Part shown: positions 1,986 through 42,845 of the stretch, one piece after another
Position numbering within the stretch: position 1 is the stretch's first letter
Layout: each line of letters starts with the position of its first letter
DNA from: Thermostichus vulcanus str. 'Rupite'
Lineage (GTDB): Bacteria > Cyanobacteriota > Cyanobacteriia > Thermostichales > Thermostichaceae
Length of the DNA stretch: 42,845 bases
Direction of reading: 5' to 3'
Assembly (NCBI RefSeq): GCF_022848905.1
Contig: NZ_JAFIRA010000035.1
Coordinates: 1 to 42,845, forward strand
Made by a program: the position numbers and the translations under genes
The notes under the pieces: model-generated
Told to the model about the DNA's origin: nothing
Seen by the model: only the letters and a program-made list of their open reading frames with translations
Database searches by the model: none

Positions 1986-3209
1986 GTGAGGTTGGGGGTG
2001 CAAGAGCTGTCTTGGTTGGTGTTGGGCCTGAGCTATGTCGGGTTGGGTCTAGGATCCCTGCCCAGGTTGCGCATGAACCGAGCCACGATTGCCCTGGTGG
2101 GATCCGCCCTGTTGATCGGTTTGGGAACTTTGTCATTGCGGCAGGCTTGGGAAGCCATTGACCCGACCACGATTGTGTTTTTGCTGAGCATGATGGTGGT
2201 GAATGCCAGCTTGTCCTACGGGGGCGCATTTCAGGTGGCTTTGGTGGGGTTGATTCGGGCCAGCCGTAGCCCTTTTGGCCTGTTGATCATGCTGGTGTTT
2301 GGCAGCGGGTTGCTCTCGGCTTTTCTGCTCAACGATACCCTGGCGTTGGTGTTCACCCCCCTGACCTTACAGGTGACGACGGTGCTGGGGTTAAACTCGA
2401 TCCCCTACCTATTGGCATTGGCAGCGGCTACGAACCTGGGCTCGGTCGCTACCCTGAGCGGTAACCCCCAGAATATTTTGGTCGGCTCCTTTTCAGGGAT
2501 TGGCTACCTGGAGTTTGCCGGCAGGATGACCCCGATTGCGGTGGTGGGGCTGCTGGTGGAGGTGGGGTTACTGTGGCTCTACTATCCGCAGGTACGTTCG
2601 TTGAAACCCTTTGCAGAGGTGCCTTGGATCCCGCTGCGGCTCTATCCCCCCCTCTTGCGTAAGAGCGTGGTGATCACGGGAGGACTGTTTGTGGCGTTTG
2701 TGGCCGGGATCCCGTTGGCGGAATCGGCCTTGGTGGCGGCGGCCCTGTTGTTGATCACCCGCAGACTCAAACCAGAGCGATTTTTGGGGCAGGTGGACTG
2801 GAATTTGCTGGTGATGTTTTCGGGGTTGTTTATCCTGACGCGAGCAACACGGGAATTGGTAGCCGGTAGCCCCTGGGGGGCGAGCTTGTGGCCTTTGGCA
2901 GAAGGTCTGGCGGGATCCCCCCTCAGTTTGCTCGGCGGTGTGGCGTTGTTGTCCAATACCATTTCCAATGTGCCGGCAGTGTTGTTGTTGCAGCCGTTGA
3001 TCCCACAGCAGGATGCCACCGCATGGTTGCTGCTGGCTGCGGGATCCACTTTGGCGGGCAATCTCACCCTGTTTGGCGCAGTGGCCAATTTGATCACAGT
3101 CGAGGCAGCAGCCAAAAAAGGCTACACCCTCACGTTTGGAGAGCATCTCCGTTTTGGCTTGCCCTTGACGATGCTCACTCTTGGGTTCACCTGGCTGTGG
3201 TTGCGTTAA
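1986..3209 (+). CDS. ArsB/NhaD (ion transporter) superfamily membrane transporter
   Basis: A 407-residue polytopic protein with about ten to twelve membrane helices. Two segments are diagnostic of the ArsB/NhaD and SLC13-like superfamily: the first half has a re-entrant type sequence with LLNDTLALVFTPL, followed by AAATNLGSVATLSGNPQNI (the TNxGSxxTxxGNPQN type motif); the second half repeats it as SNTISNVPAVLLL and AAGSTLAGNLTLFGAVAN. Such proteins move anions, or antiport sodium against protons; the substrate here is unknown. The start is taken as the GTG at 1986; another initiation codon close by is possible. Transcribed alone, with a repeat-bearing gap before the next gene. Confidence 0.82.
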   Translation: MRLGVQELSWLVLGLSYVGLGLGSLPRLRMNRATIALVGSALLIGLGTLSLRQAWEAIDPTTIVFLLSMMVVNASLSYGGAFQVALVGLIRASRSPFGLLIMLVFGSGLLSAFLLNDTLALVFTPLTLQVTTVLGLNSIPYLLALAAATNLGSVATLSGNPQNILVGSFSGIGYLEFAGRMTPIAVVGLLVEVGLLWLYYPQVRSLKPFAEVPWIPLRLYPPLLRKSVVITGGLFVAFVAGIPLAESALVAAALLLITRRLKPERFLGQVDWNLLVMFSGLFILTRATRELVAGSPWGASLWPLAEGLAGSPLSLLGGVALLSNTISNVPAVLLLQPLIPQQDATAWLLLAAGSTLAGNLTLFGAVANLITVEAAAKKGYTLTFGEHLRFGLPLTMLTLGFTWLWLR

Positions 3210-40215: not shown

Positions 40216-40819
40216 TTGATCGTATTCGAGATGAAGACATGTACAATGTTGCTCATTCAGAATCTTGAGGAAAGTATTGAGATAAGCATGCGAAAAGGGC
40301 ATAATCAATATGTGACAGTTATCAGCAATCTAGAGAATCATTGCCTCATTGAGGTGATTGATGCTCACAAGGCGGAAGAGCTTACTGAATACCTAGAAAG
40401 CCTATGGACAGAGGAAGAGAGGCCGAATATCGAAAAGGTTAGCATCGATATTTGGGCTGGATTTGCCAGGGTAGTCAAGCCGGTATTTCCCAAAGCACAT
40501 ATTGTCTATGACAGATTTCATGTGATGCAGAAAGCTGTCAAAGAATTAGACAAACTTAGACGACAGTCTCGACTCATAGAAAAAGGCTCAAGAGGTTCAA
40601 ATAGTTGCATGGATGAAAGATGCTCGGAGAGTCTACACCGATGTGGTGAAAACAATCCAGAATCATCTTCAGGGAATCTGTCAGTATTTTGCCAATCGTG
40701 TGACCAGTGGCATTATGGAGGGAATCAACAACCGGATCAAGGTAATCAAGCGACAAGGGTATGGGTTTACCAACATGACTAACTTCAGAGCTAGATTATT
40801 AGCAGCTTTCTGGCCTTAG
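40216..40819 (+). pseudogene. Decayed ISL3-family transposase
   Basis: Two overlapping frames together encode parts of an ISL3-type DDE transposase. The first (to about 40600) has SMRKGHNQYVTVI, VSIDIWAGFARVVK with a catalytic Asp, and VYDRFHVMQKAVKELDK with the second Asp. After a frameshift near 40600, the second (from about 40613) has VYTDVVKTIQNHLQGICQYF and SGIMEGINNRIKVIKRQGYGF, with the catalytic Glu and the family-typical end. About 100 residues between the two and the N-terminal zinc finger are missing compared with a ~400-residue enzyme, so it is broken and inactive. Upstream bases 40060-40215 hold only traces. Confidence 0.78.
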
Positions 40820-40908
40820 TAATCCTTGATCACCATAAGTCCGGGAGAGCCTCACCCTTGAAGATGAATATGTCAGACATTTGTGCTGTCATGGTTCCTT
40901 CCTTCTAT

Positions 40909-40994
40909 GCCCAACGGTAAAGTTGTGCGGCGGCAAATAACCTTTGCAACACCACCAAGATCTTTCGCCCGTCCGCACTAACGCAGTGTTAGAC
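40909..40994 (-). other. attC-like recombination site after the MtrA-like gene
   Basis: An 86-bp imperfect palindrome on the minus strand, starting 17 bases after the MtrA-like stop. Its outer boxes are GTCTAAC (40994-40988) and GTTGGGC (40915-40909), matching the RYYYAAC and GTTRRRY attC boxes. Inside, the arms GTGCGG-A-CGG and CCGCCGCAC pair, with one extra unpaired base in the left arm (plus-strand T at 40972), the hallmark that sets attC orientation. The orientation fits the gene. No integrase gene is in the window. The sequence features are seen; site function is inferred. Confidence 0.72.
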
Positions 40995-41010
40995 TGCCGT
41001 ACATATATAA

Positions 41011-42141
41011 TTACAAGTCGTGAGAATATGTCTGATCTTGAACATACCTAAATCCCAGTTTCATCGACAGTTCTGCTTTTGCCAACTCCTCACCAAGATA
41101 GGCGGAATGATCTAGCTGAGTCACCCAACCATTTTCAATGATTGCCCAATAAATGCTTCTAGCATTTTTCCCTTCAATCGCCCTCAAGAGTGCGTTGTCG
41201 TATGAATAGTGTTCGACAAGAATGTTGCCCTTGTCAGGTTGTGGAAGAATTACGAAGTAACCTGTTTTATCCATCCGGAACTTTACAGGCTCCTTGGCTT
41301 GAAGGATAGTTGTGCTCGACGACTGTATTGCATCACTCTTACCCTGCTTTGTACAACCACAGGATGAGGATTGTGTTTGTGAGAGTGCTTGCATTTTCTC
41401 AATAATTTTCTCTGTATCTTCACAGCCAATTAGATCGACAACTTGTACCTGCTTCTGAAAAGCTTCTACCTCTTCGTAAGTGACATTCTTTAATAATGGT
41501 CGCTTACCAGGAGAACCAATCACTTTCATGCGATCATCTACTCCATTTTCAGCAAGCGCAAGTAGAGTTTTTCCGCTATAGTGCCCCTCTGAGTCTTTCC
41601 CTGTTAGTAACAAAAAACGAATCGTTGGGTTACTCACAACATTTTTGATAACCTTATCAACTCCAATGTTTTCTGTCTCAGTTTTCCCTACCACACAAAG
41701 TTCTTTAGGTTTAATATTTGCAAGTTGCTCAGCTAGCTCAACGCTAGCAAGTGTTGAAATTGCGACTGGGCAATCTTCACCGTGACAAAGCGCAAAGTAC
41801 TCTCCGGCAACTGGAAAGAGAACATTTTCTCGTACCTCGAAGCCACATCCTGATAAGTGGCTTTGAACAGATTCAGGGAAGGCTTGGTGGAACGAGTTAG
41901 TTGCTACGGCAGGAAAACAATGAGCGCAGCCAATACAGGGATACTGAATTGGCTCCATCTGATTTAACCAATGCTGAGTATCTCTAAGTAAATTCGAGGT
42001 AGTATCAGTCAGATTTGCGGATAGGGTCGTTTCCAAATTTTCTAGCATTTCCTTCATGCAGCCGCATTTCCGACATTTAGCAAAAGACATACCCTCCTGA
42101 AGTTCGGAGTGGATGTGGCTAATATGATTATCTTCTAGCAT
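41011..42141 (-). CDS. MtrA-like corrinoid domain fused to a DUF4346-like domain, with N-terminal cysteine cluster
   Basis: A 376-residue soluble protein in three parts. Residues 15-80 hold two cysteine clusters, C-X2-C-X-C at 23-28 and C-X2-C-X2-C at 69-75 (iron-sulfur or zinc). Residues about 105-250 match MtrA, the corrinoid subunit of methanogen methyl-tetrahydromethanopterin:coenzyme M methyltransferase: TLASVELAEQL, KTETENIGVDKVIKN, NPTIRFLLLTG and EGHYSGKTLLALAENG. His187 in EGHYSG falls at the place of the His that ligates cobalt in MtrA. Residues about 283-372 resemble DUF4346 (GYFVILPQPDKGN, ARSIYWAIIENGW, LGEELAKAE). Cyanobacteria lack this methanogen pathway, so a corrinoid methyl-transfer role in another pathway is the best inference. 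AGGAGGG precedes the ATG. AT-rich; an attC-like site follows. Confidence 0.85.
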   Translation of the reverse strand: MLEDNHISHIHSELQEGMSFAKCRKCGCMKEMLENLETTLSANLTDTTSNLLRDTQHWLNQMEPIQYPCIGCAHCFPAVATNSFHQAFPESVQSHLSGCGFEVRENVLFPVAGEYFALCHGEDCPVAISTLASVELAEQLANIKPKELCVVGKTETENIGVDKVIKNVVSNPTIRFLLLTGKDSEGHYSGKTLLALAENGVDDRMKVIGSPGKRPLLKNVTYEEVEAFQKQVQVVDLIGCEDTEKIIEKMQALSQTQSSSCGCTKQGKSDAIQSSSTTILQAKEPVKFRMDKTGYFVILPQPDKGNILVEHYSYDNALLRAIEGKNARSIYWAIIENGWVTQLDHSAYLGEELAKAELSMKLGFRYVQDQTYSHDL

Positions 42142-42164
42142 CGTTCCCTCCTGTTTTGTTACCC

Positions 42165-42186
42165 ACCACTATTTTGCAATAGTGGT
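42165..42186 (-). promoter_or_regulatory. 9-bp inverted repeat in front of the MtrA-like gene
   Basis: ACCACTATT at 42165-42173 pairs with AATAGTGGT at 42178-42186 across a 4-base centre. It lies about 12 bases upstream of the AGGAGGG ribosome-binding site of the MtrA-like gene, where a repressor operator or leader hairpin would act. AT-rich sequence further upstream could provide a promoter. Confidence 0.5.
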
Positions 42187-42219
42187 CAGACTTCAAGGAT
42201 ATAGGCTGTACAAATCAAT

Positions 42220-42384
42220 TTAACGCTGAACGCATAATATAAAGCCTTCACACCTCCACTGATAATCTTTAAGTTCCTTAATGCTGAACTCTGGCAGATA
42301 GTTTTGAAGCTGCGCCCCTACTGATAACTTAGGCGGTCTAACGTCTGAACTCACCTGCCACCAGGGATCCCTCACCACCGGCAA
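42220..42384 (-). CDS. Possible 54-residue small ORF
   Basis: Read from a TTG at 42384 to TAA at 42220-42222, with PWWQVSSDVRPPK and YLPEFSIKELKDYQWRC. Its ordered, mixed composition looks coding, and it lies between an attC-like palindrome and the MtrA-like gene. It has no recognisable ribosome-binding site and no family I know. It could be the remnant of a cassette gene. It contains one GGGATCCC copy, unlike the gene after it. Confidence 0.3.
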   Translation of the reverse strand: MPVVRDPWWQVSSDVRPPKLSVGAQLQNYLPEFSIKELKDYQWRCEGFILCVQR

Positions 42385-42436
42385 AAATCTAGCACAAGGT
42401 CAGCTGCAGTGACTTGTTATGTTGTGTCCCTACTCT

Positions 42437-42452
42437 CCCGATAATCATCGGG
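42437..42452. other. Small hairpin in the cassette region
   Basis: TCCCGAT-AATC-ATCGGGA is a perfect stem at 42436-42453. It lies in a stretch (42385-42516) that holds no supported gene and carries two GGATCC copies and the short GTTGTGTCCCTA motif also found in the dispersed repeat. Confidence 0.4.
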
Positions 42453-42516
42453 ATCCTCACTGACCAGCCCCCAGGGATCCCTTGCCCCAAAAGCCAGATA
42501 TTGACCGGGGCTGGCA

Positions 42517-42603
42517 ACATAACGGTTCGGGTCAGCGGTTGCCGTGATCTTTGCGTCCAACCCAAGCGGCTGCGGTCAATCCGCTGCACCCGAATTGTTA
42601 GCT
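42517..42603 (-). other. attC-like recombination site overlapping the HNH fragment
   Basis: An 87-bp imperfect palindrome. On the minus strand it runs AGCTAAC (42603-42597), a 2-base unpaired spacer AA, left arm TTCGGGTGCAGCGG, central 42 bases, right arm CCGCTGACCCGAA, spacer CC, and GTTATGT (42523-42517). The arms pair over 13 bases with one extra unpaired G in the left arm (plus-strand C at 42587). Paired boxes, unequal spacers and one extrahelical base are the attC plan. The end boxes are near but not exact matches to RYYYAAC and GTTRRRY. Confidence 0.75.
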
Positions 42604-42818
42604 GGCGGTTGAATCTTAGACCTACTCAACAAAACCTGAAGCTCTTCAATGCTCAACGGAGGAGAACGGCGATGAATCATGGCATGACAGTTAGGGCACA
42701 CAGGACGTAAATCTTTGAGGCTCTCCTGACATTTTGGTGTCGATAGTATAATGAGATACTGAGTTCCATGACGAACATTGGTTCCTCTTGATAAGTTATT
42801 GGGTCTTGCTGGAGTCAA
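42576..42818 (-). pseudogene. HNH endonuclease C-terminal fragment
   Basis: An open frame of about 80 residues whose middle, DLRPVCPNCHAMIHRRSPPLSIEEL, is the C-terminal part of an HNH nuclease (Cys-X2-Cys zinc site and the final His). The central His-His metal-binding part that should precede it is missing: the upstream residues (TPARPNNLSRGTNVRHGTQYLII) do not look like the family. The frame is open to the window edge at 42845, so the gene may be frameshifted, rearranged, or continue outside. Its last codons run into the attC-like site. Confidence 0.6.
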
Positions 42819-42845
42819 AATCCAAGAGTTTGTAGAGTTAGAACA

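Follow-up and report, generated by a model that had tools for sequence, protein, structure and literature searches.

In integrons, the bottom strand of an attC site folds into a hairpin, and the integrase IntI binds its R and L boxes and cuts at G/TTA of the R' box. Integrons, clusters of attC sites lacking an integrase (CALINs), and integrons in Cyanobacteria are already known: Cyanobacteria are among the phyla listed with integrons in PMC8618304 and PMC2426708, an attC covariance model for Cyanobacteria appears in PMC8352920, and the description of IntegronFinder 2.0 (PMC9024848) states that CALINs are reported from two attC sites on and gives their average as almost six.

The window analysed here is a stretch of 42,845 nucleotides that makes up the entire contig C35 of the Thermostichus vulcanus str. 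'Rupite' genome (3.72 Mb in 120 contigs), whose two full-length core genes of photosystem I (PF00223) mark it as that of a cyanobacterium. At the Rfam gathering threshold, a tRNA is the sole match in the window. Comparison within a sample of 96 cyanobacterial genomes, this one included, indicates that a palindrome near the end of the contig is very probably an attC, the 3' end of an integron cassette, within an integrase-less array of three attC sites (CALIN), the remainder of a chromosomal integron of Cyanobacteria. The features of the array and its borders are as follows.

40216-40854, plus strand: ISL3-family transposase gene remnant and its terminal repeat (40831-40854).
40909-40994, minus strand: attC site D (R'' GTCTAAC, R' GTTGGGC), which closes the MtrA/DUF4346 cassette.
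40915-42341, minus strand: MtrA/DUF4346 cassette, 1,427 bp from crossover to crossover, holding a single gene, which runs in the cassette sense.
41011-42141, minus strand: cassette gene of 376 aa, MtrA (PF04208) plus pterin-binding DUF4346 (PF14251), its stop 16 nt before attC D.
42336-42422, minus strand: attC site B (R'' ACATAAC, R' GTTAGAC), which closes the gene-less cassette and fits the model less well.
42342-42522, minus strand: gene-less cassette closed by attC B, 181 bp from crossover to crossover, with copies in its own genome and in relatives.
42517-42603, minus strand: attC site A (R'' AGCTAAC at 42603-42597, R' GTTATGT at 42523-42517).
Within 42517-42603, minus strand: arms L''/L' of site A, TTCGGGT(G)CAGCGG / CCGCTGACCCGAA.
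42576-42719, minus strand: HNH nuclease gene carried by the cassette that attC A terminates; its 3' end is present, and an insertion sequence cuts off the 5' part.
42720-42845, no strand assigned: insertion sequence end at the contig edge, 126 bp, bordered by GTCAGGAGAGCC.

The sites resemble those of cyanobacterial chromosomal integrons, which have the R''/L''/L'/R' plan, an extrahelical base and an unpaired spacer and form one-strand arrays beside intI, whereas the window array is broken by insertion sequences and its genome has no integrase over cut-off. With CALINs the array shares at least two neighbouring attC sites, in a genome where no intI over cut-off was found; three sites are visible here, where the contig ends beside the array, against the average given in PMC9024848. 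Plasmid pB of Kovacikia minuta CCNUW1 (NZ_CP083584.1) carries five one-strand sites of the same attC family divergent from an annotated integrase; unlike the window array, it is a plasmid, has other cargo and retains the integrase. The class 3 integron of E. coli plasmid pQ7 (NC_014356.1) is the same general system, with an integrase 42.4% identical to that of a same-genus relative of the window genome (G003), but its attC sequence family is different.

Site A reads AGC-TAAC-AA-TTCGGGT-G-CAGCGG ... CCGCTG-ACCCGAA-CC-GTTA-TGT on the minus strand, with 7+6 = 13 paired bases, a single extrahelical G, the spacers AA/CC and the ends TAAC/GTTA; this is precisely the anatomy that the first-pass annotation had ascribed to it. 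Its crossover is predicted between G42523 and T42522. The folding check proposed there bears it out: the DNA fold lies well below shuffled sequences on either strand (z -3.55 and -3.43), none of 200 shuffles being as stable. Measured against the attC box consensus (R'' = RYYYAAC, R' = GTTRRRY), the boxes of site A deviate once each, those of site D match throughout, and site B deviates at one base in R''. The box core is unbroken TAAC/GTTA in sites A and B and TAAC/GTTG in site D.

Related sites of about 80 nt were found by BLAST in 36 of the 96 genomes, the window genome included. In their alignment, the conserved letters span TAAC to GTTA and end there, and the flanks are unrelated. Over 36 family sites, AAC and GTT are invariant in 36/36, but the collecting pattern itself held those letters. 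The proposed pairs are formed in 88.1% of alignment cells versus 78.4% after shuffling, with compensatory changes in 80 cells versus 31.1 (0/500 shuffles), and structures slid along the alignment pair in 21-44%. These changes touch 11 pairs, the extrahelical G is kept, the spacer is unpaired, and RNAalifold recovers identical arms unaided.

The covariance model R1, whose training set includes site A and excludes sites B and D, was run unfiltered over the window and scored site A at 95.2 bits (E 3e-21), site D at 57.1 bits and site B, which fits with several unpaired positions, at 29.9 bits. The runner-up, besides the plus-strand palindromic echo of site A, reached 10.1 bits (E 3.2). A degenerate fourth site suspected by eye between site B and the MtrA gene (about 42333-42215) was rejected, the same scan being empty there. 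Across the sample, with at most 46 candidates scored per genome, R1 sites occur in at least 72 of the 96 cyanobacterial genomes, this one included, often tens per genome; such counts, here and in the own-genome scan (150 of 1624 candidates scored), are lower bounds because only part of the candidates was scored. R1 gave no hit at the cassette sites of pQ7, the class 3 integron plasmid that served as a control, and none in a Thiodictyon plasmid stretch; it is lineage-specific, and a match to it is no proof that a site belongs to attC in general.

Position relative to genes is consistent with the cassette plan. Among 48 of the 55 R1 matches (the seven with E above 0.003 having been dropped), 36/48 sites have, between -100 and +40 of the R'' start, the end of an ORF on the same strand that is at least 60 aa long, versus 14 in the mirrored arrangement and 22% of random places; for ORFs of at least 120 aa the figures are 26/48 versus 6 and 9%. 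In the window, the stop codon of the HNH ORF (42576) lies inside site A, that of the MtrA/DUF4346 gene just precedes site D, and site B closes the gene-less cassette. The first-pass annotation placed site A over the 3' end of an HNH-type fragment; the overlap stands, but the reading frame is chimeric, its first ~42 residues being insertion sequence end.

Linkage to integron integrases was observed in relatives. Integron-integrase matches over cut-off are present in 32 of the 96 genomes, and when intI and R1 matches sharing a contig are paired (on the R1 side, the best ~150), 17 of the 18 nearest pairs within 10 kb among the matches listed are canonical, with the site 5' of intI on the opposite strand; in the lone exception (G041) the site lies between two intI fragments. 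On Kovacikia minuta pB, 5/5 R1 sites are on the expected strand and side of the integrase, four of the five just beyond annotated CDS ends. The same-genus genome G003 encodes an intI of 421 aa (TIGR02249, 373.6 bits; cut-off 265) whose adjacent 27 kb holds 16/16 R1 sites on the minus strand. An R1 site lies within ~1.5 kb of just 4 of the 20 best intI loci, a count beside which it should be noted that first cassettes can exceed 1.5 kb and that R1 is specific to one attC family. The per-genome association (R1 sites in 45 of 47 genomes with intI-like matches versus 27 of 49 without) was set aside as evidence, since genome size and kinship confound it. At its N-terminus, the G003 integrase (L068 10284-11549) carries ~100 additional residues; its full-length identity to the integrase of G095, a genome of another family, is 72.5%, a sequence resemblance that suggests transfer.

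If cassettes move as circles, the start of a cassette should pair with its own R'', unlike the bases that follow its attC. This circle test was applied to 63 cassettes (neighbouring same-strand pairs within 4 kb, from 84 R1 matches). The own start complements the own R'' at 2.68 of 3 variable bases; the following bases reach 1.40 and random starts 1.38 (sd 0.11), with 1.76 as the best of 2000 draws; 46 of the 63 favour the own start, 4 contradict it and 13 tie. Both complete cassettes of the window score 3 of 3 (5 of 6 over six bases) with their own start, versus 0 and 2 with the following bases, and by eye the start of the 1,427-bp cassette, GTTAGACCGCC, complements its own R'' region, GGCAGTCTAAC, at 10 of 11 bases. 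Thus, 42342-42522 and 40915-42341 are real cassettes by this test.

In sequence, structure, covariation, orientation, position after genes, intI linkage and cassette boundaries alike, the sites behave as attC, and the identification of site A as an attC site is strongly supported.

In the cassette sense (minus strand), the order is an HNH cassette truncated by an insertion sequence, attC A, the gene-less cassette, attC B, the MtrA/DUF4346 cassette, attC D and the ISL3 remnant. Where the first-pass annotation had counted two same-oriented sites within 1.7 kb, the strand and the spacing hold and the number becomes three, site B having been added by R1. In the whole genome, R1 finds at least five sites at E <= 1, three of them the same-strand neighbours of this array; when five sites were placed at random, a span of 1.7 kb held three of them in 2 of 200,000 draws.

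An integron integrase (TIGR02249) over cut-off is lacking from the whole 3.72 Mb assembly, rated 99.99% complete by the tool used, the best match being a 38.5-bit recombinase; together with the three-site array, this fits a CALIN, for which at least two nearby same-strand attC sites are expected. The CALIN interpretation of the first-pass annotation is thereby supported, for an array that runs into an insertion sequence at the contig end. That insertion sequence, with which the contig terminates 242 bp past site A, means that the full length of the array and the lack of an adjacent integrase are not directly readable. Alternatively, intI might lie past the insertion sequence, beyond the contig end, so that the array would belong to a complete integron: the window is a whole contig whose closing insertion sequence end recurs at many contig ends, intI stands beside such an array in a same-genus genome, and draft genomes inflate CALIN counts, according to a statement in PMC9024848. 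The assembly-wide result for TIGR02249 stands against this, and we consider a complete integron here rather unlikely.

The array is best read as a decaying CALIN interrupted by insertion sequences. The insertion sequence end at the contig edge also opens contigs C94 and C2, in nearly identical form and with the same bordering sequence, has protein-level matches at further contig ends, and contains an inverted repeat common to the ISL3-type remnant (I1). At the other side, the ISL3 terminal repeat lies ~55 bp past site D, and ABC-transporter-like genes lie farther on, outside the array. Insertion sequence ends were seen within roughly 55-130 bp of an attC in three places, two in the window and one in G003 (L109), possibly a preference for attC surroundings. 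Elsewhere in the genome, contig C33 has a solitary attC of the family in which R' has changed from GTTA to GATC; by eye, this site (L002 1139-1579) is preceded by an ORF piece resembling a glyoxalase/VOC protein.

Such changes bear on the alternative that the sites are attC by origin and now serve another role, for example putative transcription termination between cassette genes, and persist without an integrase for that reason. Stable hairpins at or just past stop codons, in a genome with no integrase over cut-off, would suit such a role, but the visible decay (insertion sequences; the altered R' of C33) fits neutral loss instead, and a new role seems improbable.

The gene-less cassette has no sizeable ORF confined inside it in any of six frames, although short open stretches traverse it. 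In a genome of another genus (G007:C66) it recurs at 88% identity with both edges at the G/TTA crossover and with different neighbours, and on contig C94 of the window genome its head follows a different attC. Four copies, on C2 and C1 of the window genome and in G005 and G067, have no recognisable attC directly in front by eye; thus the unit can also occur alone. BLAST revealed two further B-type copies in the window genome beyond the R1 sites, and R1 failed to pick up the copy on C2. Altogether, at least six full or near-full copies of this ~185-bp unit, with nested inverted repeats, were noted in four genomes, some outside arrays (window; L096, L102, L088, L089, L090). Runs of attC ~179-214 bp apart in G067, a genome with an intI fragment, are tandem gene-less cassettes (C1 ~11.7-13.6 kb, L104; ~946-948 kb, L098). 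A conserved RNA within the cassette was considered and rejected, the consensus fold of six copies having an unfavourable covariation term and just three doubly changed pairs. As a doubtful but conceivable extension, the gene-less cassette may itself be a mobile noncoding cassette, carried by integrons and also settling alone, that spreads through this cyanobacterial family and beyond and may act on its neighbours as promoter, terminator or small RNA.

Copies outside arrays, and the many related sites in the sample, might also suggest a mere likeness to attC, the palindromes being intergenic repeats of an ordinary kind (MITE or REP type) or transcription terminators. This is highly implausible and was rejected: same-strand arrays, canonical intI placement, same-strand ORF ends, conserved letters that stop at TAAC and GTTA between unrelated flanks, and the circle signature are all unexpected of terminators or MITEs. 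The refuting case named in the first-pass annotation, the same palindrome as an ordinary repeat genome-wide, was sought: the window genome holds the R1 sites and two B-type copies counted above, and relatives have many sites per genome, yet as same-strand arrays and beside integrases.

At E <= 1e-30, the MtrA/DUF4346 gene was found in no genome of the 96 other than its own, and its candidacy as a widespread cassette was therefore dropped; a relative 76% identical is encoded in a Pleurocapsales genome, in a stretch with metal-type transporters where no attC was seen by eye. The HNH piece of the window falls below the Pfam cut-off (E 0.034), and two relatives are above it. Relatives of this cassette gene (L115, L108) weakly resemble methyl-directed restriction enzymes of type IV; an EVE-HNH protein is among them, and G013 has the HNH gene flanked by two attC sites. 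Contig C94 of the window genome (G000; L013) contains at 68-2926 a 952-aa ORF matching the C-terminal half of Druantia DruE (PADLOC, E 1e-229), located 92 bp before a family attC at 3019-3104, its start fused to the insertion sequence end seen in the window.

The five other same-genus genomes differ in what they retain. G003 has intI and a long array; G004 has a broken intI and few sites; G005 has an intI fragment with a copy of the gene-less cassette 1.7 kb away; and G001 and G002 have neither intI nor sites. With the window genome included, this pattern has the look of ongoing loss, although the succession of steps is a reconstruction. The lineage would once have had an IntI that built the array and was later lost. 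The attC bottom strand of the array would fold into a hairpin bound by IntI at the R and L boxes, IntI would cut between G and TTA of R', and cassettes would leave and enter as circles; at present they would be immobile unless IntI came in trans.

The cargo near these sites includes defence-type genes, namely the Druantia DruE-like piece and the HNH gene, whose relatives are weakly type IV restriction-like. The circle test provides a simple sequence check of cassette boundaries where the integrase is absent. With a decaying integron here, and an integrase and long array in a same-genus genome, close relatives can be compared to trace how the system is lost and what becomes of its cassettes.
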